Source: Salisaeta longa DSM 21114 (GTDB taxonomy: Bacteria; Bacteroidota; Rhodothermia; Rhodothermales; Salinibacteraceae). Taken from it: a DNA stretch of 64,000 nucleotides. This document shows, one piece after another, positions 35,996-51,133 of this stretch. The notes beneath the pieces are model-generated. The model was given only the letters and a program-made list of their open reading frames with translations. It ran no database searches and was not told where the DNA came from. The stretch spans positions 332,005-396,004 of the forward strand of contig NZ_ATTH01000001.1 of NCBI RefSeq assembly GCF_000419585.1, given 5' to 3'. The stretch's first letter is position 1, and each line of letters opens with the position of its first letter. A program made the position numbers and the translations under genes.

Positions 35996-36024
35996 TTGAC
36001 ATTGGTGGAAGCGCTTCCTACACT
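35996..36024 (+). promoter_or_regulatory. Sigma70-type promoter of the TonB-receptor operon
   Basis: TTGACA (35996-36001), 17 bases, then TACACT (36019-36024): a near-consensus -35/-10 pair with ideal spacing. The start point would be near 36031, giving an 85-base leader to the ATG at 36117. The rest of the 327 bases upstream of that ATG shows nothing else I can name. Confidence 0.7.
36007..36018. promoter_or_regulatory. LacI-type operator inside the promoter spacer
   Basis: GGAAGCGCTTCC is a perfect 12 bp palindrome with a central CG. It fills most of the spacer between the -35 and -10 boxes, where a bound repressor would block RNA polymerase. It is closely similar to the palindrome at the susC promoter (AAAGCGCTTT core at 22774-22783), so one regulator may control both. 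Confidence 0.65.
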
Positions 36025-36116: not shown

Positions 36117-38609
36117 ATGAGGCATTGCATACAGTGGATGGGTTGGCTTTTGGTGGGGGTGTTGGCGCTTCCCCTCCCGGCGCACGCGCAAGACGCGGGC
36201 GTCTTGCAGGGCGTGGTAACGGATCAAGACACGCAGGAACCGCTGCCGGGGGCCAATGTCGTGCTCGACGGCACCCAGCGCGGGGCCAGCACCGACGCGG
36301 ACGGCGAGTACCGCATTGACGGCCTTCCGGCGGGCACCTACACGGTGCGCGTCACCTTTGTGGGCTACGAGCCGGCAACCCGTACGGTAGACATCGCGGC
36401 CGGCGAGACGGAAACCCTCGACCTGGTGCTCGCGCCGCGTACCTTCGTGGGGCAAGAGATTGTGGTGACGGGGTCGAAGCGGCCAGAGAAGCTGCTGGAG
36501 GCCCCGGTGACCATGGAGGCGATCAGCGCTGAGGAGCTGAACGTGAGCGGCGGCGGCACCTACCTCTCGGCGCTCTCCACCTTAAAAGGCGTCGACTTCG
36601 TGAACGTGGGCATCAACGGGCAGGGCATCTCGGCGCGTGGCTTCAACAACCACTTCAACACGCGTATGCTGCAAATGAAAGACGGACGCATCGCGCAGCT
36701 TCCGGGGACGGGCCTGCCGCAGGGCAACTTTCTGCCCACCTCGGGGCTCGACCTCAAAACCATCGAGGTGGTGGTGGGCCCAGCGGCTGCGCTGTATGGC
36801 CCCAACGCTCACACCGGCGTGGTGAACGTGATTACGAAGACACCCTGGGATCAGTCCGGCCTAGCGCTCGATGTGCGGGCCGGCCAGAACGACCTGGTGG
36901 ATGTAAACGGCCGCGTGGCCGGCATCATCAGCGAGGATTTTGGGTGGAAGGTCACCGGGCAGTACATGACGGCCACCGACTACCGTCCGCCAGTGGGCGG
37001 CCCCAACGCCACCATGGCCGATTCAACGCATTACTTTGGCACGTCCTTTCACGAAAGTGCGCTCGTTGAGAACTACGAGATTGAGTCCATTCGCACCGAG
37101 GCCAGCCTCTATTACCGCCTCGGCGACGACTGGGAGATCAACGGCGTGTACGGCTTCTCGCAGAACGACAACTTTGGGCTTACCAACAACGGCCGCAACC
37201 GCATCAAGGGATGGCAGGTGCAGTACCAGAGCCTTCAGCTGAGCAGCGAGAGCTGGTTTGCGCAGGCGACGCACACCTCCAACGATGCCGGAAATACGTA
37301 CCAGATCAACGGGGTGGCCACCAGCGCAACGGCCGTGATGCTGCAGGCCATGGCCAACGGCGCGTCGCCAAGCGAGGCGCGCCAGCAAGCCATCAATCAG
37401 CTGCCCGCATTGCGCGAGGCCAACCGGTTTGTGGACAACGGCGAGCTGTGGGACTCGGAGCTGCAGTACCGCACCACGTTCAGTGTGGGCGGCGGTAGCC
37501 TCGACCTCGTGACCGGCGGACAGTACCGCTACTACGCGCCCGACTCCGACGGCACGTTCCTCGCCGACGCCATTGGGCGCGACATCGACGCTACGGAGAT
37601 TGGCGGCTACCTGCAGCTGGACTACCGCCCCACCGATCGGCTGCGCATCAACCTGGCCGGTCGGGTAGACACCCACAGCGAGTACACCACCCAGTTCAGC
37701 CCGAAGGCCGCGCTGGTGTACACCGTGGCGAAGAATCATAACCTGCGTGCCACGTACAACCGCGCCTTCAAAAGCCCCACCGTGCTGGAAGGCAACCTGT
37801 TCATTCCCATTCCCGTGCCCAGCGTAGCGCCGGGGTACGTGGTGAATGCACTGGGGAACTACACCGGTTACGTCATCCAAGACCCCAGCGGCACCGTCAT
37901 CAACCGCATCGATCCGCTGGCGCCCGAGGAAGTAAACGCCGTCGAGTTGGGCTACAAAGGTGTGTTCGGCAAGCGGCTGTTCGTCGACGCGGTGCTGTAC
38001 AACTCGTGGTACAAAAACTTTATCAGCCCGCTCACCACCGTCGCCAACGGCATCACCCAAATTCCCTTTTACCCCGACGGCCAGCCGGTCGATGCGCCGG
38101 GTAACAACCAGTTCAACGCGCTGTCGACCTACCTCAACTTTGGGGAAGCGGTGGTGCAGGGCGCCGATCTGGGCGTTAACCTCTTTCTGGGGAATCACTT
38201 TAACGTGAACGTCAACGGCTCGTACATTTACCTGCGCAGCTTTGAGGAGAGCGAGAGCGGCCAGCGCCTCCTGCTGAATGTGCCCAATACGAAGCTCAAG
38301 GGCACCATGACGATGCGCGACGTGGGCCTCAAGAATTCGTTTCTGAGCCTCTCGGGCCGGTGGCACAGCGCGTACGAATTTCGCTCGGGCTACTGGGACA
38401 GCGCGCGGTTCTACGCGGATGGCGAGGTGCCCAGCCGGTTTACCGCGGGCCTTACGGCAGGCTACGCCCTCCCGGACTACGGCGTCGACCTGAAGCTCAG
38501 CGTCACGAACCTGTTCAACAACAAGCGGCCCGACGTGCTGGGCGCGCCCGTCACCGAGCGCCTGATCTGGTTGTCGGCCACCTACTCGTTTAAGGGGCTT
38601 CGCTTCTAA
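36117..38609 (+). CDS. TonB-dependent outer-membrane receptor
   Basis: 830 aa. The signal peptide ends at PAHAQ (~24). A carboxypeptidase-D-like domain (GVLQGVVTDQDTQEPLPGANV) covers ~25-110. The plug follows with VTGSKRPEKLLEAPVTMEAIS and VVVGPAAALYGPNAHTGVVNVIT. A 22-strand barrel fills the rest and ends with SATYSFKGLRF. It lacks the SusC plug signature and has no SusD partner, so it is a classic single-protein receptor. The ligand is unknown. The genes that follow suggest a carboxylic or fatty-acid-like compound. The ATG at 36117 has a GAGGA-like ribosome binding site. Confidence 0.93.
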   Translation: MRHCIQWMGWLLVGVLALPLPAHAQDAGVLQGVVTDQDTQEPLPGANVVLDGTQRGASTDADGEYRIDGLPAGTYTVRVTFVGYEPATRTVDIAAGETETLDLVLAPRTFVGQEIVVTGSKRPEKLLEAPVTMEAISAEELNVSGGGTYLSALSTLKGVDFVNVGINGQGISARGFNNHFNTRMLQMKDGRIAQLPGTGLPQGNFLPTSGLDLKTIEVVVGPAAALYGPNAHTGVVNVITKTPWDQSGLALDVRAGQNDLVDVNGRVAGIISEDFGWKVTGQYMTATDYRPPVGGPNATMADSTHYFGTSFHESALVENYEIESIRTEASLYYRLGDDWEINGVYGFSQNDNFGLTNNGRNRIKGWQVQYQSLQLSSESWFAQATHTSNDAGNTYQINGVATSATAVMLQAMANGASPSEARQQAINQLPALREANRFVDNGELWDSELQYRTTFSVGGGSLDLVTGGQYRYYAPDSDGTFLADAIGRDIDATEIGGYLQLDYRPTDRLRINLAGRVDTHSEYTTQFSPKAALVYTVAKNHNLRATYNRAFKSPTVLEGNLFIPIPVPSVAPGYVVNALGNYTGYVIQDPSGTVINRIDPLAPEEVNAVELGYKGVFGKRLFVDAVLYNSWYKNFISPLTTVANGITQIPFYPDGQPVDAPGNNQFNALSTYLNFGEAVVQGADLGVNLFLGNHFNVNVNGSYIYLRSFEESESGQRLLLNVPNTKLKGTMTMRDVGLKNSFLSLSGRWHSAYEFRSGYWDSARFYADGEVPSRFTAGLTAGYALPDYGVDLKLSVTNLFNNKRPDVLGAPVTERLIWLSATYSFKGLRF

Positions 38610-38693: not shown

Positions 38694-39440
38694 ATGGCTG
38701 CACCACTCACCGATCGCGTAGCCCTCATCACCGGCGGAAGTCAGGGCATTGGGCGCGCCACCGCGGCGTTATTTGCGCAGCGCGGCGCGCGCGTCATCAT
38801 CGCCGACGTAAACGAAGCCGCCGGCGCAGCGGCCGTGCAAGCGATTGAAGACAACGGCGGCACGGCGCAATTCGTGCCCACCGACGTCACCGACCGCGCC
38901 GCCACCGAGGCCCTCGCGGAGGCCGCGCAAGCAGCGTACGGCGCCCTTGACATCCTCGTCAACAATGCCGGCATCACGCGCGACGCCACCCTCGCCAAAA
39001 TGGACGGCGACGCGTTCGATGCGGTGGTCGACGTCAACCTGAAGGGCGTATTCAACACCACGAAGGCCGCGCTGCCGTATCTGCAAGGGAGCGCGCACGG
39101 CCGCATCCTGAACGCCGCCTCGGTGGTGGGGCTGTACGGCAACTTTGGCCAAACGAACTACGTGGCCTCCAAGTCGGGCGTCATTGGCATGACCAAGACG
39201 TGGGCCCGCGAGCTGGGGCGCGACGGCATCACCGTCAACGCGGTGGCGCCGGGCTTTATCGAGACGCCGATGGTGGAGACCGTGCCCGACAAGGTGATGG
39301 ATCGCCTCGTGAAGCAGACGCCGCTGGGGCGCCTGGGCCGGGCCGATGACATCGCCCGCGCCTATGCGTTTCTGGCGAGCGACGACGCGGCGTTCATCAC
39401 GGGCGCTGTATTGAGTGTCGACGGCGGGCTGGTGCTGTAA
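38694..39440 (+). CDS. FabG/PhaB-like 3-oxoacyl reductase
   Basis: 248 aa classical short-chain dehydrogenase. The cofactor motif is ITGGSQGIGRATA, the NNAG motif is present in LVNNAGITRD, the catalytic Ser is in LNAASVVG and the YxxxK pair in NYVASKSG. The C-terminus PGFIETPM and ITGAVLSVDGGL are FabG-like. It likely reduces a 3-oxoacyl-ACP or -CoA using NADPH. It comes 84 bases after the TonB receptor and 43 bases before the KAS III-like gene. It may be a dedicated reductase of this pathway, not the housekeeping FabG. Confidence 0.88.
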   Translation: MAAPLTDRVALITGGSQGIGRATAALFAQRGARVIIADVNEAAGAAAVQAIEDNGGTAQFVPTDVTDRAATEALAEAAQAAYGALDILVNNAGITRDATLAKMDGDAFDAVVDVNLKGVFNTTKAALPYLQGSAHGRILNAASVVGLYGNFGQTNYVASKSGVIGMTKTWARELGRDGITVNAVAPGFIETPMVETVPDKVMDRLVKQTPLGRLGRADDIARAYAFLASDDAAFITGAVLSVDGGLVL

Positions 39441-39483: not shown

Positions 39484-40479
39484 ATGCGACACGCACAACT
39501 TCTGGGTACCGGCCTGTATGCGCCGGAGCACGTTGTGACCAACGATTACTTCGATGCCCTGTACGGCGAAGACGTCGACAGCTTCTTGCGCGCGAACCGC
39601 AACATCATCGAGCGGCGGTACGCCACCGACGAGCAATCGACCTCCGACCTGGCCGTAGAAGCCGCGCGCGACGCCCTCGCCGATGCGGGCGTAGCCCCCG
39701 ATGCCCTCGACCTCATCATCGTCTCCACCGACACCCCCGACTTCCTCTCGCCGTCTACCGCGGCCGTCGTGCAAGACAAGCTGAAGGCCCCAAACGCCGC
39801 GACGTTCGACCTGAACACGGCCTGCGCGGGGTTCGTGACGGCGCTCGACACGGCGCGCAAGTTCGTGGAGGCCGACGCGCGCTACCGCCGGGTGCTCGTC
39901 GTTGGCGCGTATCTGATGAGCCGCTTCATCGACTACGAGCAGAAAAACGTCGCGTCGCTCTTTGCCGATGGCGCCGGCGCGGCCGTGATCGGACCTACCG
40001 ATGATGCCCAACAGGGCGTGCTGGCTTCGGAGCTTATCTCGAAGGGCGAGTACCACAGCTACATGGGCGTGTACACCGGCGGCGCGGCCCGCCCCGTCAC
40101 CGACGCCCACGCCGAGCGCACCCAAAAACTGGCCTTCCGCAAGAAATTTCCCGACGGCTTCAACCCCGATCAGTGGACAACAATGGTGCGCACGCTGGCC
40201 GACCGGCTGGACGTAACGCCCGCCGCTGTGGATCGGTACTTCTTTACGCAGATCAACATCCAGAGCATCCGCGAGACGATGGACCGGCTGGGCCTCCCCC
40301 ACGACCGGGCGCACAACGTCATGGACCGTTTCGGCTACACGGGCAACGCGTGTGTGGCCATGGCGCTCGCCGATGCCGACGATCAGGGCCTGCTCGCGCC
40401 CGGCGACCTGATCTTTCTCATTGCCTCCGGCGGCGGCGCGGCCCTCGCGGGGATCGCGCTCCGCTGGCCGGCGCGCTAA
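39484..40479 (+). CDS. KAS III-like protein with changed active site
   Basis: 331 aa thiolase-fold protein of the beta-ketoacyl synthase III family. The nucleophile is kept: C114 in DLNTACAGFVTA. The other two residues of the Cys-His-Asn triad are not seen. The site of the usual HQAN reads TQIN (Thr255 in place of His), and the site of YGNTSA reads FGYTGNA (Tyr285 in place of Asn). Decarboxylative condensation is therefore doubtful; acyl transfer or thioester cleavage through Cys114 is possible. It stands between the FabG-like reductase and the Na+ symporter. The ATG at 39484 fits the fold start (HAQLLGTGLYAPE). Confidence 0.8.
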   Translation: MRHAQLLGTGLYAPEHVVTNDYFDALYGEDVDSFLRANRNIIERRYATDEQSTSDLAVEAARDALADAGVAPDALDLIIVSTDTPDFLSPSTAAVVQDKLKAPNAATFDLNTACAGFVTALDTARKFVEADARYRRVLVVGAYLMSRFIDYEQKNVASLFADGAGAAVIGPTDDAQQGVLASELISKGEYHSYMGVYTGGAARPVTDAHAERTQKLAFRKKFPDGFNPDQWTTMVRTLADRLDVTPAAVDRYFFTQINIQSIRETMDRLGLPHDRAHNVMDRFGYTGNACVAMALADADDQGLLAPGDLIFLIASGGGAALAGIALRWPAR

Positions 40480-40521: not shown

Positions 40522-42014
40522 ATGACCGAAACGGCGATTGCCTGGACCTTTTTCGTGGGCTATCTGGTGCTGGTGGGCATCGCAGCCACCATCGGCATTC
40601 GCAAGATGTCGGGGTTTGATGCGTTCTCGGTGGGCAGCCGAAACGTGTCGCCCGTGCTGGTGGGGTTGTCGCTGGCGGCCAATCTGACGAGCGCCGCGAC
40701 GTTCATCATTAATCCCGGCCTCATCTACCTGTACGGCGTAAGCGGCGTCGTGGCCTACGCGATGGCGCTGCCGCTGGGCGTGTTCATTGGCCTTATCGTC
40801 TTCTCGAAGGCATTTCGGCGCGTGGGCGATACCGTAACCGCGCGCACGGTGCCGCAATGGATTGGCGATCGCTTTGGGGATCGGCGCCTCAAGGTCTTTT
40901 TTGCCGTCGCCAGTCTGCTGCAAATTGCCTTTCTGGTGCTCATCACCGTGGGGCTTACGCGCGTCCTGGCGAACGTTTTGGCGCTTCCCATGCTTGCGGC
41001 GATGGCGCTTACGCTGCTCATCCCGCTCGTGTACTTGTTTTGGGGCGGCGCCAGTGCGCACACGCTCACCAACGCCGCACAGTCGGTGCTCATGATAATG
41101 GTGGCGTTGCTGTTGCTCGCCAGCGGCGCCCACTACCTCGCCGACGGCCTCGACGGCTTCCTGGCGCAATTGGCAACCATCGACCCGGTGCTGGCGCAGC
41201 CAATTAACCCCCAGAGTCTGCTCTTTCGTGACTGGTTTGAGGTGGTGGTGGCAAACGTAGCCATCGGCATCGCCATCGTCAACCAGCCGCACGTCATGTC
41301 GAAGGCGCTCTACCTGAACAGCAAGCGCGATGTCAACACGTACCTCGCCACGGCCATCGGCGTGCTGGTGCTGTTCTTTTTGGTCATCGTGGTGGGCCTC
41401 TACGCGCGGCTTCTCATGCCGCAGGCGGGCCTCGCCCCCGACGCGGTGGTGCCCACCTACATCGTAGACGTCTTTGGGCCGGTGATGCGCTCGGTCATCC
41501 TCATCGGATTGGTGGCGGCGGGTTTTTCCACCATGGAGGGGTTGCTCGTGGCCCTCTCCACCATCTTCACCAACGACCTGTACCGCCCGTGGGCCGCGCG
41601 GCAGGAGCTGGCAGAAGACGTAATTGAGCGGCGGAGCCTCCGCTACAGCCGGCTCTTTCTGGTGGGCCTCGTCCCGGTGGTCGCGCTCATCAGCTACCAG
41701 CAGATTGTGGATCCGAACCTCTCGGTGGCCATCCTCGGCCAAAACGGCGTCTACGCCCTGTTTGCGGCCACGTTTGTGCCCATCCTGTTCGGCATTTTCT
41801 CGGATCGCATTCGCACCGGCACGGTGTTTCTGTCCGCCGTCGTCGCCCTGATCGTGCACTTTGGCATGTACTACGGCGAGGTGACGGTGTATGCCAACAA
41901 CCCGGCCGTACCGGCCTTCTGCGCGCTGGTGGCCAGCACGGCCGTGGCCCTCGTCGGGCAGGCGCTGCGCCCGGCCGATTCGCCTACGTCTGCAACGACC
42001 CCCGCAACGTCCTC

Positions 42015-42018
<4 letters not shown>
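40522..42018 (+). CDS. Sodium:solute symporter, SSS family
   Basis: 498 aa with about 13 membrane helices. Family features include SLAANLTSAATFIINPG at the first sodium-site helix, VPQWIGDRFGDRRLK, NVAIGIAIVNQPHVMSKAL, and GLVAAGFSTMEGLLVALSTIFTNDLY near the second sodium site. It brings a solute into the cytoplasm with Na+. Many SSS members carry carboxylates, sugars or proline. The next gene overlaps its stop by four bases (ATGA), so translation is coupled to the acyl-CoA synthetase, which points to a carboxylate as the cargo. Confidence 0.9.
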
Positions 42019-43529
<1,511 letters not shown>

Positions 43530-43587: not shown

Positions 43588-44502
43588 ATGATTGCTCTTC
43601 TTATAGGTCTCGCGCTTATGACGCCTGCCCCCGATTCGCTTCCGCACTACCCGGCCGACGTGCAGCACGTGCAGGTGGGCGACTATCGCACGGCCTACGT
43701 GGACCGCGGCGACGGGCCGGTGCTGTTGTTTGTGCACGGGCTGGGCTCCAACCTGTCGCTTTGGCGGACGGCACTGGACACGTTTGCCGAAACGCATCGG
43801 GTGGTAGCGCTCGATCTGCCCGGCTTTGGACTCTCGGAGAAGGCCGACGTGCCGGCGACCATGCCGTTCTTTGCGCAGCACGTGGCGGCGTTTATGGACA
43901 CGCTGGGGATTGCGCGGGCGACGTACGTGGGCGTTTCGATGGGCGGGCAGGTGGGGCTTACGCTGGCGCTCTCTGCGGAGGCGCGCGTGGCGCGGATGGT
44001 GCTGGTGTCGCCGGCGGGCATCGAGCAATTTACCGCGGAGGAAGCCGCCACGCTCAAGCAGCTCACCACCCCGCAGGCCATCGCGCAGTCTACCGATGCG
44101 CAGGTGGCGCAAAGCGTGCGGGCCAACTTCGACACGTGGTCGCCCAAGCACCAGTGGCTGATCGAACAGCGGCATGCCCTTGCGCAGCGCGACGACTTTT
44201 CGGCGTATGCCGCGGCCAATGCGCGGGCGGTGGCGGGTATGCTCGACGGCGCGGTGTACGACCGCCTCGATACGCTCTCGATGCCCATGCTGGTGCTCTT
44301 TGGCGCCGGCGACCGGCTCATCCCGAATCCGTATTTGCATCCCGAGCAGACCATCGACGACGTGGCGGATGGTGCGCGCGCGGCGCTGCCGTCGGCTACC
44401 GTAACGGTGGTGGAGGACGCCGGGCACCTGCTCATGCTGGAGCGTCCCGCGGCCTTCCGTACCCACGTGCGCCCCTTCCTGCAACAGACGCGCACGCCCT
44501 AA
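43588..44502 (+). CDS. Alpha/beta hydrolase, MhpC/BphD-like
   Basis: 304 aa. The oxyanion region is LLFVHGLGSN, the nucleophile elbow is GVSMGGQ (Ser117), the acid is in FGAGDRLIP and the His in VEDAGHLLMLE. The N-terminus (MIALLIGLALMTPAP) is hydrophobic and may be a signal peptide or anchor. The closest types are hydrolases of cleaved aromatic rings and esterases. In the operon it would release a carboxylate before the ligase step, if it acts outside or in the periplasm. It follows the ligase by 58 bases. Confidence 0.85.
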   Translation: MIALLIGLALMTPAPDSLPHYPADVQHVQVGDYRTAYVDRGDGPVLLFVHGLGSNLSLWRTALDTFAETHRVVALDLPGFGLSEKADVPATMPFFAQHVAAFMDTLGIARATYVGVSMGGQVGLTLALSAEARVARMVLVSPAGIEQFTAEEAATLKQLTTPQAIAQSTDAQVAQSVRANFDTWSPKHQWLIEQRHALAQRDDFSAYAAANARAVAGMLDGAVYDRLDTLSMPMLVLFGAGDRLIPNPYLHPEQTIDDVADGARAALPSATVTVVEDAGHLLMLERPAAFRTHVRPFLQQTRTP

Positions 44503-45086: not shown

Positions 45087-45098
45087 TCTCCCGTGTCT

Positions 45099-45584
45099 AT
45101 GGTTCGTTTGATGCTTGCGGCGTTCTTCTCCGGCGTGCTCTTTGCGCTGAGCGGCTGCACCCCCGATGCGGAGCCAACCGGCGACGCCGCCACCGGCTTC
45201 ACCGCCGAAGGGCGGCTTGCATTTCTGGCGCCACAGGGCGATACGCTGACGACCATCGCCATCGAAATTGCTGACACGCCCGACACGCGGGCCCGCGGAC
45301 TCATGCGCCGCCGCTCGCTGGGCTACAACCGGGGCATGCTGTTCATCTACGACGTGCCCGACACCAACGGCATGTGGATGAAAAACACCCCGCTGCCGCT
45401 CGACATCATCTTTGTGAATGAGCAGAAAGAGGTGATTAACATCGCGCGCCGCACCACGCCCTTCTCCGAGACGCCCATTCGTCCGGACCAGCCGGCGCTG
45501 TACGTGGTTGAGGTGCGCGCCGGGTTTGCGAAACGATTCGGCATCACGTCCGATACGCGCCTGCAGTGGACCCGCACGTCGTAG
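45099..45584 (+). CDS. DUF192 lipoprotein, first copy
   Basis: 161 aa. The lipoprotein signal ends in ALSGC. The DUF192 domain runs from IAIEIADTPDTRARGLMRR through RGMLFIYDVPDT to GMWMKNTPLPLDIIFVNEQK and INIARRTTPFSE, and the end of the fold is YVVEVRAGFAKRFGI. The function of the family is unknown; it occurs in many exported proteins. The next gene is a paralogue in tandem. GTG at 45093 is an alternative start. Confidence 0.85.
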   Translation: MVRLMLAAFFSGVLFALSGCTPDAEPTGDAATGFTAEGRLAFLAPQGDTLTTIAIEIADTPDTRARGLMRRRSLGYNRGMLFIYDVPDTNGMWMKNTPLPLDIIFVNEQKEVINIARRTTPFSETPIRPDQPALYVVEVRAGFAKRFGITSDTRLQWTRTS

Positions 45585-45610
45585 TTCCCCCGCACCGTTT
45601 GCCGCCTCGC

Positions 45611-46132
45611 ATGCTTGTACGCTCTCTTCTTCTCGCGCTCCTCGCTGGGTTGCTCCTTGGGGGATGCGCCAACGACGGGCAGCAGACGCCGCCCGCTTCG
45701 TCCTCGTCGGACGACACGGCCCGCACGATTCCCTTCGACCCCGAAGGCACGCTGGCCGTGCTGCAGGGCCGCGATACCACGGTCACGCTCACCATTGAAA
45801 TTGCCGAGACCGATTCGGCGCGCACGCGCGGGCTGATGGAGCGTACGTCGCTGCCGGAGCGCTCGGGGATGCTGTTTCCGTTTCCAGAGGAGCGCACGCA
45901 GAGCTTCTGGATGGCCAATACCCCGTTGCCGCTCGACATCATCTACATCAACAGCGACTCGCAGATCGTAGACATCGCCAAGTACACGCAGCCCTTCTCC
46001 TCGAAGAACATCACCTCGGATGCCCCCGCGCAGTATGTGCTGGAGGTATCCGCCGGGGTGGCCGATAGCTACGGCATTTTGGTGGGCGACGCGGTGCGGT
46101 GGACGCGCACCGAGCCGACCCAAACGCCCTAA
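45611..46132 (+). CDS. DUF192 lipoprotein, second copy
   Basis: 173 aa. Lipobox LLGGC. The domain pattern repeats that of the previous gene: IEIAETDSARTRGLMERTS, SGMLFPFPEE, FWMANTPLPLDIIYINSDS, KYTQPFSS and YVLEVSAGVADSYGI. The two copies are separated by 26 bases and are probably an old tandem duplication with clear divergence. A terminator follows, so this is the last gene of the run. Confidence 0.85.
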   Translation: MLVRSLLLALLAGLLLGGCANDGQQTPPASSSSDDTARTIPFDPEGTLAVLQGRDTTVTLTIEIAETDSARTRGLMERTSLPERSGMLFPFPEERTQSFWMANTPLPLDIIYINSDSQIVDIAKYTQPFSSKNITSDAPAQYVLEVSAGVADSYGILVGDAVRWTRTEPTQTP

Positions 46133-47832: not shown

Positions 47833-47968
47833 CCGGCGCTGCGCTGCCGTCTATTGCAAAAGACGTGCAACGCACAACAGAGCGCGGGGGCCGGGGCTGC
47901 AAATGAAGGACGCAGCGCTTATGTTAATCATCCACCCGGATCTACTCTTCACGGATGCCTCGCTTCGT

Positions 47969-49708
47969 ATGCTGTTTGCCCGTCGCCTCTTTGCTGTGGC
48001 CTGTGCGCTACTTCTGGTGGGCGGAAGCCCGCTCAGCGCCCGCGCCCAAGACGACCCGTTGCCCGCGGTTACGCGCACGTTTGCCATCACCAATGCCCGC
48101 GTCGTGCAGGCGCCCGGCCAGGTGCTAGAGCGGGCCACGGTGGTGGTGCGCGACGGCCTCATCGAAGCGGTGGGCCCGTCGGTCGACATTCCCTTCGACG
48201 CGCAGCGCATCGCGGGCGACTCGCTCACCGTGTACGCCGGATTCATCGACGGATTCGGCCACATTGGCATCGACATGCCCAAGCCTAAGGAATACGACGT
48301 TGAGCGGCCGGGGAGTCCGCCGCCGGGACGCGCGGGCATCCAGCCGGAACGGCGGGCCGCTACGTTTTTGGATCCGTCGGATGCTTCGGTAGGGGCATGG
48401 CGCAAGATCGGCTTCACGACGGCGCACATTGCGCCCGAGGGGCAGATGCTCCCGGGGCAAGGGGCCGTGGCGCTGCTGGCTGGTGCACAGCCCAGCGCCA
48501 TGATTTTGGAAGCGCCCACGAGCCTGTACGCGCAGCTGGAAGGGTCGCGGGGCGACTGGAACTCGTCGGTCTACCCCAGCACCCCGATGGGCGTGCTGGC
48601 CCAATTCCGCCAGCTGTACCGCGAGACGGCGCGCCGCCGCACCCTCCTGCAGCAGTACGAAACGTCGCCGCGCGGCATGGAGCGCCCGCCGCACGATCCG
48701 CAGCACGACGCCTTGCTGCCGGTGGTGGCCGGCGAGCGTCCGGTGGCCTTCTTTAGCGAGGACGTTCTGGACATCCACCGCATCCTGGCCCTGAAGAACG
48801 AACTGGGCTTTCCGCTGATGCTCACCGGCCTCAACGAGTCGTTTCGGGCGGTGGAGGCGCTGCGGGATGCCGACGTTCCGCTCTTTTTGACCCTGGCGCT
48901 GCCCGATGCTCCCGATGCCGTGGTGGAGGACTCGGTGGCGGCCGCACCGGTCACGCCGGCGCCGCAGGGCAGCTTCTTTGAAACCGACCTTCGCACGCGC
49001 TCGCATGAAGACGTGGGGGCCGAGGCCGACGCGTTGCAGCGCCGCCTGAAGGCCGAGGTGCAGCGCTACTACGCAACGCCCGCTACGCTGCGCGGCGCCG
49101 GCCTGCGCTTCGGGTTTAGCTCCAAGAACGCAACGGCTACCGACGTGCGGGCCAACCTACGGCTGATGCTGCAGCATGGCCTCTCGGAAGACGCGGCCCT
49201 CGCGGCGCTCACCACCGATGCGGCCGCCCTGCTGGGCCTTAGCGACCGTCTGGGCACCGTCGAAGCGGGTAAAATCGCCAACCTGGTCGTTACCGATGGC
49301 AGCTACTTTGCGAAAGACACCAACGTAACCCACGTATTCGTCGAGGGCCGCGTGTTCGACTATAGCGCCGAGGAGGCGTCGGGCGGCGTCACGGCCTCGG
49401 TGGAGGCGTTGGTGGGTGCGTGGTCGTACAGCGTCGACACGCCGCAGCAAACGTTTACGGGCACCGTCACGCTGTCGGGCACGCAAGAGACGCTCAGCGG
49501 CACGATTACCTCGCCGGCGTCGGGCGAAGCAACCCCGCTGGAAGACCTCTCCTTTGACGGGACAACGCTCTCGTTTGCGTTTGATGCCGGCGAGATTGGC
49601 ACGGTCAGCTTCAGCGGAACCGTGCAGGGCGACACCGTCGATGGCTCGGCGTCGTCGTCGTACGGCACCTTCCCCATGATGCTCGAACGCACCGACGCGC
49701 CGCAGTAG
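47969..49708 (+). CDS. Exported amidohydrolase-fold protein, metal site lost
   Basis: 579 aa with signal peptide (MLFARRLFAVACALLL to SARAQ). The start of the fold (TFAITNARVVQAPGQVLERAT, then VYAGFIDGFGHIGID) and its end (GTVEAGKIANLVVTDGSYF) match imidazolonepropionase-like amidohydrolases. The HxH metal motif reads FGH. The other expected metal residues are not seen: FFSEDVLDIHR, LTGLNESFR and GFSSKNATATDVR replace the sites kept in the next gene. The C-terminal ~120 residues (SVDTPQQTFTGTVTLSG) form a separate beta-rich domain. The protein may be a non-enzymatic partner. Confidence 0.75.
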   Translation: MLFARRLFAVACALLLVGGSPLSARAQDDPLPAVTRTFAITNARVVQAPGQVLERATVVVRDGLIEAVGPSVDIPFDAQRIAGDSLTVYAGFIDGFGHIGIDMPKPKEYDVERPGSPPPGRAGIQPERRAATFLDPSDASVGAWRKIGFTTAHIAPEGQMLPGQGAVALLAGAQPSAMILEAPTSLYAQLEGSRGDWNSSVYPSTPMGVLAQFRQLYRETARRRTLLQQYETSPRGMERPPHDPQHDALLPVVAGERPVAFFSEDVLDIHRILALKNELGFPLMLTGLNESFRAVEALRDADVPLFLTLALPDAPDAVVEDSVAAAPVTPAPQGSFFETDLRTRSHEDVGAEADALQRRLKAEVQRYYATPATLRGAGLRFGFSSKNATATDVRANLRLMLQHGLSEDAALAALTTDAAALLGLSDRLGTVEAGKIANLVVTDGSYFAKDTNVTHVFVEGRVFDYSAEEASGGVTASVEALVGAWSYSVDTPQQTFTGTVTLSGTQETLSGTITSPASGEATPLEDLSFDGTTLSFAFDAGEIGTVSFSGTVQGDTVDGSASSSYGTFPMMLERTDAPQ

Positions 49709-49753: not shown

Positions 49754-51133
49754 ATGACCCGACTGCTTCTCCTGCTCCTTTTCGTGCTTGCCGCTGCGCC
49801 TGCGCAGGCGCAAGACCTCCTGCGGGCCAATGCGCCCAACGATTGGCTGATCACCAACGCGACGGTGCTCACCGTCACCAACGGCGTCCAAGAATCGGCG
49901 GACATCCTGGTGCAAGATGGAAAAATTGCCGCGGTGGGCTCCAATCTCTCGGCGCCCGAGGGCATTGCGACGTACGACGCCAGCGGGCAATACGTGATGC
50001 CGGGCATTGTGGATGCGCATTCGCACATCGCCATCAGCAGCGTGAACGAAGCGACCGCGCCGGTGACGGCCCAGGTGGGCGTGGGCGACGTGCTCGATCC
50101 GTTCGACGTTGCGCTGTACCGCGCCCTGGCGGGCGGCGTTACTACCTCGCACGTGATGCACGGCTCGGCGAACGTGATTGGCGGGCAGAATGAGACGATC
50201 AAGCATCGCTACGGGGTGATCACGCCGGATGCGCTGCGATTGGAGGGCGCGCCGCGGACGATCAAGTTTGCGCTGGGCGAGAACCCGACGCGCGTGCATG
50301 GCGAGGGCAACGAGGTGGTGCCGCAGACGCGGATGGGCGTCGAGCAGGTGATCCGCACCACGTTCCATAAGGCGCAGCGATACATGGCAGCGCAGGCGGC
50401 CTACCGGAACGGCGAGCGCGACGCGCCGCCGCCCCACAGCGAGCGAATGGACGTTATCGCGGACATCTTGCGGGGCGAGGTACTGGTGCAATGCCACTCC
50501 TACCGCGCCGACGAAATCTACATGCTGATGGAGGTGTTTGAGGATTTTGGCGTGACGAACTACACGTTCCACCACGTCAACGAAGGATTTAAAGTGGCCC
50601 CCGAGCTCGCGGCGCACAACGCCGGGGCCTCCATCTTTTCCGACTGGTGGGCCTACAAGTTCGAAGTGTACTACTCGACGGCCTACAACGCCGCGATCCT
50701 GACGAAGAATGGCGTTACGACCTCCATCAACTCCGACTCGCCCGAGCTCAACCGGCACCTGTACCATGAGGCGGCCAAGGCGCAGCACTACGGCGGCCTC
50801 TCGGACACGCAGGCGCTGTCGCTCATCACGATTAACCCGGCGCGCCAGCTTGGCATTGCCGATCGGGTCGGCTCCATTGAAGTGGGCAAAGACGCGGATC
50901 TGGCCATCTTTAACCGCCACCCGCTATCCATTTATGCCATTGCGCAGCGCACGTATGTAGACGGCGTGGTGCGCTTTGATCGGCAGAATGACCCGGACGA
51001 TATGCGGCTGCGCGTGAACCCGGAGCGTCCCGTGGAAACGGCGTACGACTGGTCGGACACGGGCAAGCGCCACGGTAGCTGCATGCAGGGCACGGGCCTT
51101 CATGCCACGCAGCGCGGCCTGTACTTGAAGTAA
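49754..51133 (+). CDS. Exported amidohydrolase with intact metal site
   Basis: 459 aa with signal peptide (MTRLLLLLLFVLAAAPAQAQ). The HxH motif is DAHSHIAIS. The later metal residues are seen as His in LVQCHSYRADEI, His in TFHHVNEGFK and Asp in INSDSPELNRHL. The GQNETIKHRYG region fits the lysine position. It is an active imidazolonepropionase-like hydrolase of cyclic amides or peptides, likely periplasmic. It lies between two paralogues that lack these residues, with gaps of about 45 bases, so all three are probably cotranscribed. Confidence 0.85.
   Translation: MTRLLLLLLFVLAAAPAQAQDLLRANAPNDWLITNATVLTVTNGVQESADILVQDGKIAAVGSNLSAPEGIATYDASGQYVMPGIVDAHSHIAISSVNEATAPVTAQVGVGDVLDPFDVALYRALAGGVTTSHVMHGSANVIGGQNETIKHRYGVITPDALRLEGAPRTIKFALGENPTRVHGEGNEVVPQTRMGVEQVIRTTFHKAQRYMAAQAAYRNGERDAPPPHSERMDVIADILRGEVLVQCHSYRADEIYMLMEVFEDFGVTNYTFHHVNEGFKVAPELAAHNAGASIFSDWWAYKFEVYYSTAYNAAILTKNGVTTSINSDSPELNRHLYHEAAKAQHYGGLSDTQALSLITINPARQLGIADRVGSIEVGKDADLAIFNRHPLSIYAIAQRTYVDGVVRFDRQNDPDDMRLRVNPERPVETAYDWSDTGKRHGSCMQGTGLHATQRGLYLK

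Follow-up and report, generated by a model that had tools for sequence, protein, structure and literature searches.

What does a protein with the fold of 3-oxoacyl-acyl carrier protein (ACP) synthase III (KAS III) do when two of the three residues of its catalytic triad have been exchanged? The question is raised by a gene at positions 39484 to 40479 (+ strand) of a 64,000-nucleotide stretch of the Salisaeta longa DSM 21114 genome (contig NZ_ATTH01000001.1, positions 332,005 to 396,004 of the forward strand), which we refer to as the window. An initial annotation, made from the sequence alone, had described the gene product (here, the KAS protein) as KAS III-like, with Cys114 kept, the HQAN site reading TQIN, and the GNTSA site reading GYTGNA, and had proposed that it carries out acyl transfer in the manner of CerJ and DpsC rather than normal condensation. 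The description of the site was borne out by HMMER alignment with solved FabH structures, in which Cys114 corresponds to the FabH Cys, T255-Q-I-N to HQAN, and G-Y285-T-G-N-A to GNTSA. As set out below, the exchange is shared by a whole clade, and the reading that we tentatively favor from sequence and gene context is that the enzyme is nondecarboxylating and most likely performs retro-Claisen cleavage of a 3-oxoacyl-coenzyme A (3-oxoacyl-CoA) supplied by the neighboring dehydrogenase.

An altered active site conserved across a clade

The gene is an intact frame encoding 331 amino acids (aa); the longer open reading frame (ORF) listed for it opens with a GTG codon at 39415, and homology starts at the ATG codon at 39484. 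The product matched the Pfam families ACP_syn_III (8.9e-27) and ACP_syn_III_C (6.5e-20). Structure prediction, which the initial annotation had recommended, gave the FabH fold over the full length of the protein: the AlphaFold2 monomer model (9 input sequences; pLDDT 85 and pTM 0.87, with residues 195 to 207 and 210 to 219 below a pLDDT of 50) had FabH 1ebl as its nearest structure among the matches listed (Z 43.4, rmsd 1.9, 314 residues aligned). The protein nonetheless scored below every NCBIfam cut-off, the best match being to PRK09352 (NF006829) at 232.6 versus 249 bits, with TIGR00747 (FabH) at 207.4 versus 292.1 bits. Thiolase family scores were not reached either (25.4 versus 26.4 bits for Pfam Thiolase_N, with TIGR01930 absent from the 18 NCBIfam matches).

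Three KAS III-fold genes are present in the S. longa genome, and the other two have normal HQAN and GNT(S/T)A sites; one of these lies beside fabD (L003) and the other beside tpiA (L002, C1:3069616-3070575), the names fabD and tpiA being read from translated sequences and not from annotation. In a search of 60 relative genomes, the unusual site was kept by orthologues at 56 to 75% identity, and relatives at 48 to 54% identity were found in a Melioribacteraceae metagenome-assembled genome (MAG) and a Bdellovibrionaceae MAG. When a profile of 15 orthologues was run against 394 genomes sampled from the window's phylum, 56 genomes had a match, at 390 to 591 bits, and the next matches, at 252 bits or less, lay where ordinary FabHs begin. 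Of 191 genomes sampled from the phylum to which the Bdellovibrionaceae MAG belongs, 33 matched at an E value of 1e-80 or better. A more distant member on a Chloroflexota plasmid (L111) showed 41.8% identity over residues 2 to 293.

To describe the active-site columns, we aligned 61 clade rows from Bacteroidota, Bdellovibrionota, and the Chloroflexota plasmid, consisting of the window, nine loci (L039 to L047), 30 further matches from the window's phylum (L081 to L110), L111, and 20 of the 33 matches from the phylum of the Bdellovibrionaceae MAG (L135 to L154). One gene appears twice, as L040 and as L081, so that the 61 rows represent 60 distinct genes. The controls were 11 FabH-type proteins from this genome and its relatives, taken from the nonclade matches of the 60-genome search and including the two S. 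longa copies (L002 and L003). In a FastTree tree of the 61 clade rows, 6 PRK06840 rows, and 11 FabH rows, rooted on PRK06840, the clade formed a single group, with a support of only 0.68.

The changed triad proved to be a property of the whole clade and not of one protein. Cys114 was found in 61/61 clade rows, as was Cys in 11/11 controls. At the column of the catalytic His, occupied by His in 11/11 controls, the clade had Thr255 in 60 rows and Ser in 1; at the column of the catalytic Asn, occupied by Asn in 11/11 controls, it had Tyr285 in every row. Asp83 was invariant in the clade (61/61), with Ser or Val at that position in all 11 controls, and Ser315 (60/61, with Thr in the remaining row) occupied a column in the GGG loop that is Phe in 11/11 controls, a residue that we presume to be important for decarboxylation in FabH. 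The Arg that follows HQAN in 11/11 controls, which we take to be an ACP contact, was present in 1/61 clade rows. Tyr143, Tyr197, and Trp231 were each found in 61/61 rows and Asn258 was found in 59, with Arg in the other 2.

The initial annotation had raised the possibility of a different His in the active site. No His was conserved in at least 93% of the 61 clade rows, the best being His277 (43/61), and we therefore rejected a replacement His elsewhere in the protein. A catalytic Asn shifted within GYTGNA was rejected as well, since the corresponding column is Ser in 56 rows, Asn in 3, and Gly in 2. A frameshifted or decayed copy was ruled out by the intact frame and by the invariant residues across phyla. 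The Thr/Tyr swap is conserved across many bacteria and is due neither to decay nor to chance. In FabH, His244 and Asn274 are needed for decarboxylation of malonyl-ACP, according to the accessible part of PMC4807248. Since His, Asn, Phe, and Arg have been lost together while Cys has been kept, the pattern fits the loss of malonyl-ACP chemistry and not the loss of function. Although the fold and the superfamily are known, this widespread KAS III-fold subfamily, with its residue set and gene partnership, is undescribed in the literature that we searched; the search covered open-licence literature, and a description could exist in a subscription paper.

Gene partners of the clade and the operon in the window

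The acyl-CoA ligase and the reductase that the initial annotation had pointed out as neighbors turned out to be conserved partners. The KAS III-fold gene has an AMP-forming ligase beside it in 57/61 rows, a CoA-transferase in 3, and a contig edge in 1, and a short-chain dehydrogenase/reductase (SDR) is present in 58/61 rows. An acidic residue at the end of SDR beta strand 2 is the usual mark of a preference for NAD over NADP, and it was found in 58/58 rows (57 Asp and 1 Glu). The importer varied: 35 rows had a sodium:solute symporter (SSF), 4 had a major facilitator superfamily (MFS) protein, 1 had a branched-chain-type ATP-binding cassette (ABC) importer, and none was seen in 21 (19 from L039 and the set from the phylum of the Bdellovibrionaceae MAG, together with L153 and L107, the latter at a contig edge). 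Many of the hydrolase orthologues have a hydrophobic N-terminal stretch followed by a Cys and are lipoprotein-like as judged by eye. A PhaJ/MaoC-like hydratase is added in four loci. A fusion of SSF and ligase, considered for the 881- and 882-aa ORFs of L043 and L044, was rejected; Pfam found ligase domains only, the SSF being encoded by a gene of its own. Taken as sequences, the partners look like a set for uptake, release, CoA activation, and oxidation or catabolism of a carboxylic acid.

In Rhodothermia, the gene order is kept, with a TonB receptor next to the SDR-KAS pair and often a MarR-like regulator upstream. Outside Rhodothermia-type loci, the place of the TonB receptor is often taken by LpX, a lipoprotein, and OmpY, which is barrel-like and ~510 to 590 aa long. 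The OmpY barrel (L089:3319-4869 and 24 rows) and the small lipoprotein (L089:5039-5542 and 22 rows) are paired before the hydrolase and have no clear Pfam family; for OmpY, the profile search returned no solved relative at E values up to 1, and the only Pfam match was a weak one to Alginate_exp (7/16 members at E values up to 0.1, best 2.7e-06). Five distinct loci (L040, L092, L101, L109, and L152) have in their cluster a further KAS III-like protein, which is of the PRK06840 type; it lies at L040:9646-10668, L092:12601-13632, and L101:3829-4872, and the score of the L040 copy was 446.8 bits (cut-off, 315). In L111 (plasmid CP069395.1, 8179-18891), a CoA-transferase, a thiolase with a ChsH2-like OB-fold protein, and the branched-chain-type ABC importer replace the ligase and the symporter. 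Locus L101 (538-12730), which may hold the pathway in its fullest form, has in a row a pair of AMP ligases, KAS proteins of both types, an SDR, two alpha/beta hydrolases, and a thiolase plus an OB-fold partner.

In the window, the cluster lies entirely on the + strand and begins with a TonB-dependent receptor, an outer-membrane importer (36117 to 38609; Pfam TonB_dep_Rec_b-barrel [9.2e-38], Plug, and CarbopepD_reg_2), whose listed ORF opens at a TTG codon at 36024 and whose signal peptide begins at 36117. There follows a FabG-like short-chain dehydrogenase (38694 to 39440; adh_short_C2, 2.5e-69), which is assigned to the NAD type from the Asp that closes beta strand 2; among its solved matches, the FabG structure 4nbu was nearest, and 2et6, a (3R)-hydroxyacyl-CoA dehydrogenase, was third. 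Downstream of the KAS III-fold gene are a putative importer of the SSF family (40522 to 42018; SSF, 3.1e-39), the end of which overlaps by 4 bases the start of an AMP-forming acyl-CoA ligase (42015 to 43529; AMP-binding, 1.2e-85; nearest solved relatives, the fatty-acyl/feruloyl-CoA synthetase structures 8weu and 8wev), and an alpha/beta hydrolase (43588 to 44502; Abhydrolase_1, 4.7e-30) with a GVSMGG nucleophile elbow and a hydrophobic N terminus, which is probably exported. Scanning the DNA for promoters and terminators gave counts at the level of shuffled sequence (1 promoter-like site versus 1.3 expected and 7 terminator-like sites versus 6.7). Farther downstream, two similar small secreted proteins encoded in tandem (45093 to 45584 and 45566 to 46132) share the pattern RGLM..R....GMLF...NTPLPLDII and belong, we presume, to the DUF192 family, and two ORFs in tandem (47903 to 49708 and 49754 to 51133) read as exported amidohydrolase-like proteins.

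Proposed chemistry and competing explanations

The setting of importer, hydrolase, and NAD-type dehydrogenase points to catabolism over biosynthetic acyl transfer. In the pathway that we envisage, an acid, perhaps one that the exported hydrolase cleaves off an oligomer or ester, would be imported and converted to its CoA thioester by the CoA-activating enzyme, and the dehydrogenase would oxidize the (3R)-hydroxyacyl-CoA to a 3-oxoacyl-CoA. Cys114 would then attack the 3-oxo carbon, the departing acetyl-CoA enolate would be held or stabilized by Thr255 and Tyr285 and protonated by Asp83 or Tyr285, and free CoA would take the acyl group off Cys114. The net reaction would be thiolase chemistry on a KAS III scaffold. 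The Glu of the GTES motif is the acid/base of HMG-CoA synthase, and when the 61-row profile was aligned with HMG-CoA synthase homologues by hhalign, Asp83 stood opposite the Glu of GTES/GSES (84 and 97%, a moderate match, and with Asp instead of Glu). As described in the accessible part of PMC4807248, PqsC does not need its His for its Cys to become acylated. Since this is so and the FabH His and Asn serve decarboxylation, a KAS III enzyme lacking both plausibly still forms an acyl-enzyme. For such an enzyme, acting downstream of a (3R)-hydroxyacyl-CoA dehydrogenase, reversal of the Claisen step would be the simplest role.

Several observations weigh against retro-Claisen cleavage. The same genome has three canonical thiolases scoring over the cut-off, so thiolysis is already available to the cell. 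The acid/base residues of thiolases are a His and a further Cys; neither is conserved in the clade, and Thr and Tyr are poor substitutes for them. L101 and L111 carry a thiolase-like protein with an OB-fold partner that could do the cleavage there, and 19 Bdellovibrionota rows have no importer within the stretch read. The correspondence between Asp83 and the HMG-CoA synthase Glu is a profile alignment of moderate probability (the 84 and 97% given above). Finally, replacement of the catalytic His of FabH had only an ~10-fold effect, as reported in the accessible part of PMC4807248; loss of the His is thus not by itself proof of lost condensation, and dismissing forward condensation would take more than sequence.

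Formally, then, Thr and Tyr could functionally replace His and Asn in an ordinary FabH-like decarboxylative condensation. The small effect of the FabH replacement is consistent with this, as is the FabH fold (Z 43.4 to 1ebl). The protein resembles FabH (TIGR00747 and NF006829/PRK09352) in whole fold, length, catalytic Cys, and glycine-rich C-terminal GGG loop and differs from it in the gain of Asp83. However, the His-to-Thr, Asn-to-Tyr, and Phe-to-Ser changes and the loss of the presumed ACP-contact Arg occur together in the clade, and the genome already contains two canonical copies of fabH, one next to fabD and the other next to tpiA; we regard this explanation as very unlikely. The initial annotation was in this respect well founded, normal FabH chemistry of the KAS protein being unlikely; its alternative of CerJ/DpsC-type acyl transfer fared less well. 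In such a reaction, Cys114 would pass an acyl group from the ligase-made CoA thioester to ACP, a hydroxyl, or water, with no carbon-carbon chemistry. The invariant Cys114, the His-independent acylation in PqsC, and the ligase that is always close unless a CoA-transferase or a contig edge takes its place are in keeping with acyl transfer, and KAS III-fold acyltransferases exist: the accessible part of PMC9573744 describes ChlB3 and CerJ and gives the catalytic residues as Cys116-His295-Asp301 for CerJ, Cys113-His296-Asp301 for ChlB3, and Ser-His-His for DpsC. These acyltransferases and starter enzymes share the KAS III fold and a changed triad with the clade but keep one or two His residues (CerJ and DpsC were compared by the published description). 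The analogy is weakened because the clade lacks that His; the His-Asp pair of CerJ and ChlB3 is missing, and membership in the CerJ type, with its Cys or Ser and His-Asp or His-His, was rejected. Acyl transfer would also leave the invariant Asp83 and Tyr285 and the constant NAD-type dehydrogenase unexplained, and the Arg taken to contact ACP is lost. We consider acyl transfer unlikely.

A forward nondecarboxylative condensation, resembling the Claisen or aldol reactions of OleA and HMG-CoA synthase and yielding a product that the dehydrogenase would then reduce, seems quite unlikely to us. Its attraction lies in the alignment of Asp83 with the HMG-CoA synthase Glu, alongside a Cys nucleophile (nondecarboxylative chemistry being plausible), and in the gene set: oleABCD comprises a thiolase-fold enzyme, an SDR, an AMP ligase, and an alpha/beta hydrolase, and the clade's loci superficially resemble it. 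The cut-offs of the HMG-CoA synthase families were nevertheless missed widely (29.4 versus 360.35 bits for TIGR01835 and 43.9 versus 353.35 bits for TIGR00748), no His is conserved in the clade, and membership was rejected. The NAD-type SDR (58/58) would usually run in the oxidative direction, and the importers and exported hydrolase point to catabolism. OleA, a head-to-head Claisen condensing enzyme of the thiolase superfamily, has a Glu117 that is followed by Pro and serves as general base from the other subunit (PMC7064751, accessible part). By match coordinates, this position is Ser89-Pro90 in the KAS protein (Ser in 60/61 rows and Thr in 1); the clade thus departs from OleA at this position, and OleA membership was likewise rejected. 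A further difference from OleA is that the best model scores of the neighboring SDR and ligase are those of FabG and of general acyl-CoA ligases.

There is, finally, a slight chance that the protein is a noncatalytic or regulatory subunit, related to another KAS III-like protein as PqsB is to PqsC; the presence of PRK06840-type proteins in the five shared clusters would suit such a pairing. PqsBC resembles the clade in its KAS III fold and its missing Asn, and its second substrate is not malonyl-ACP, but PqsC keeps Cys129-His269 (PMC4807248, accessible part), whereas the clade has lost the His as well and the KAS protein lies in an import operon. The PRK06840 proteins (NF005308, a 3-oxoacyl-ACP synthase family) have in common with the clade, besides the shared clusters, an acidic residue opposite Asp83 (Glu in 6/6), Tyr143, and Trp231. 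They differ in that Tyr285 is matched by His and Thr255 by Leu, and the window's KAS protein scores 152.2 versus 315 bits against their model. The PRK06840 type, in which Cys is present, Glu aligns with Asp83, the FabH Asn is replaced by His, and HQAN is absent, is thus a further KAS III family whose site differs from that of FabH.

Consequences for annotation and metabolism

Since genes of the clade carry a KAS III annotation, the Chloroflexota copy being an example, they would be counted as fatty acid synthesis genes. A simple column rule (Tyr285, Thr255, and Ser315 where FabH has Asn, His, and Phe, plus Asp83) sorts the clade out of that bin. It is possible, if doubtful, that the Cys-Thr-Tyr-Asp site represents a catalytic arrangement new to the thiolase superfamily for retro-Claisen cleavage of CoA thioesters and forms the core of an undescribed pathway for importing and degrading (3R)-hydroxy acids (e.g., those of polyesters or lipid A fatty acids) across Bacteroidota and Bdellovibrionota. 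If the catabolic reading is true, the pathway would be a conserved one, present in 56 of the 394 genomes sampled from the window's phylum and in 33 of the 191 from the phylum of the Bdellovibrionaceae MAG, and a handful of substitutions would have turned a decarboxylating condensing enzyme into a nondecarboxylating one.
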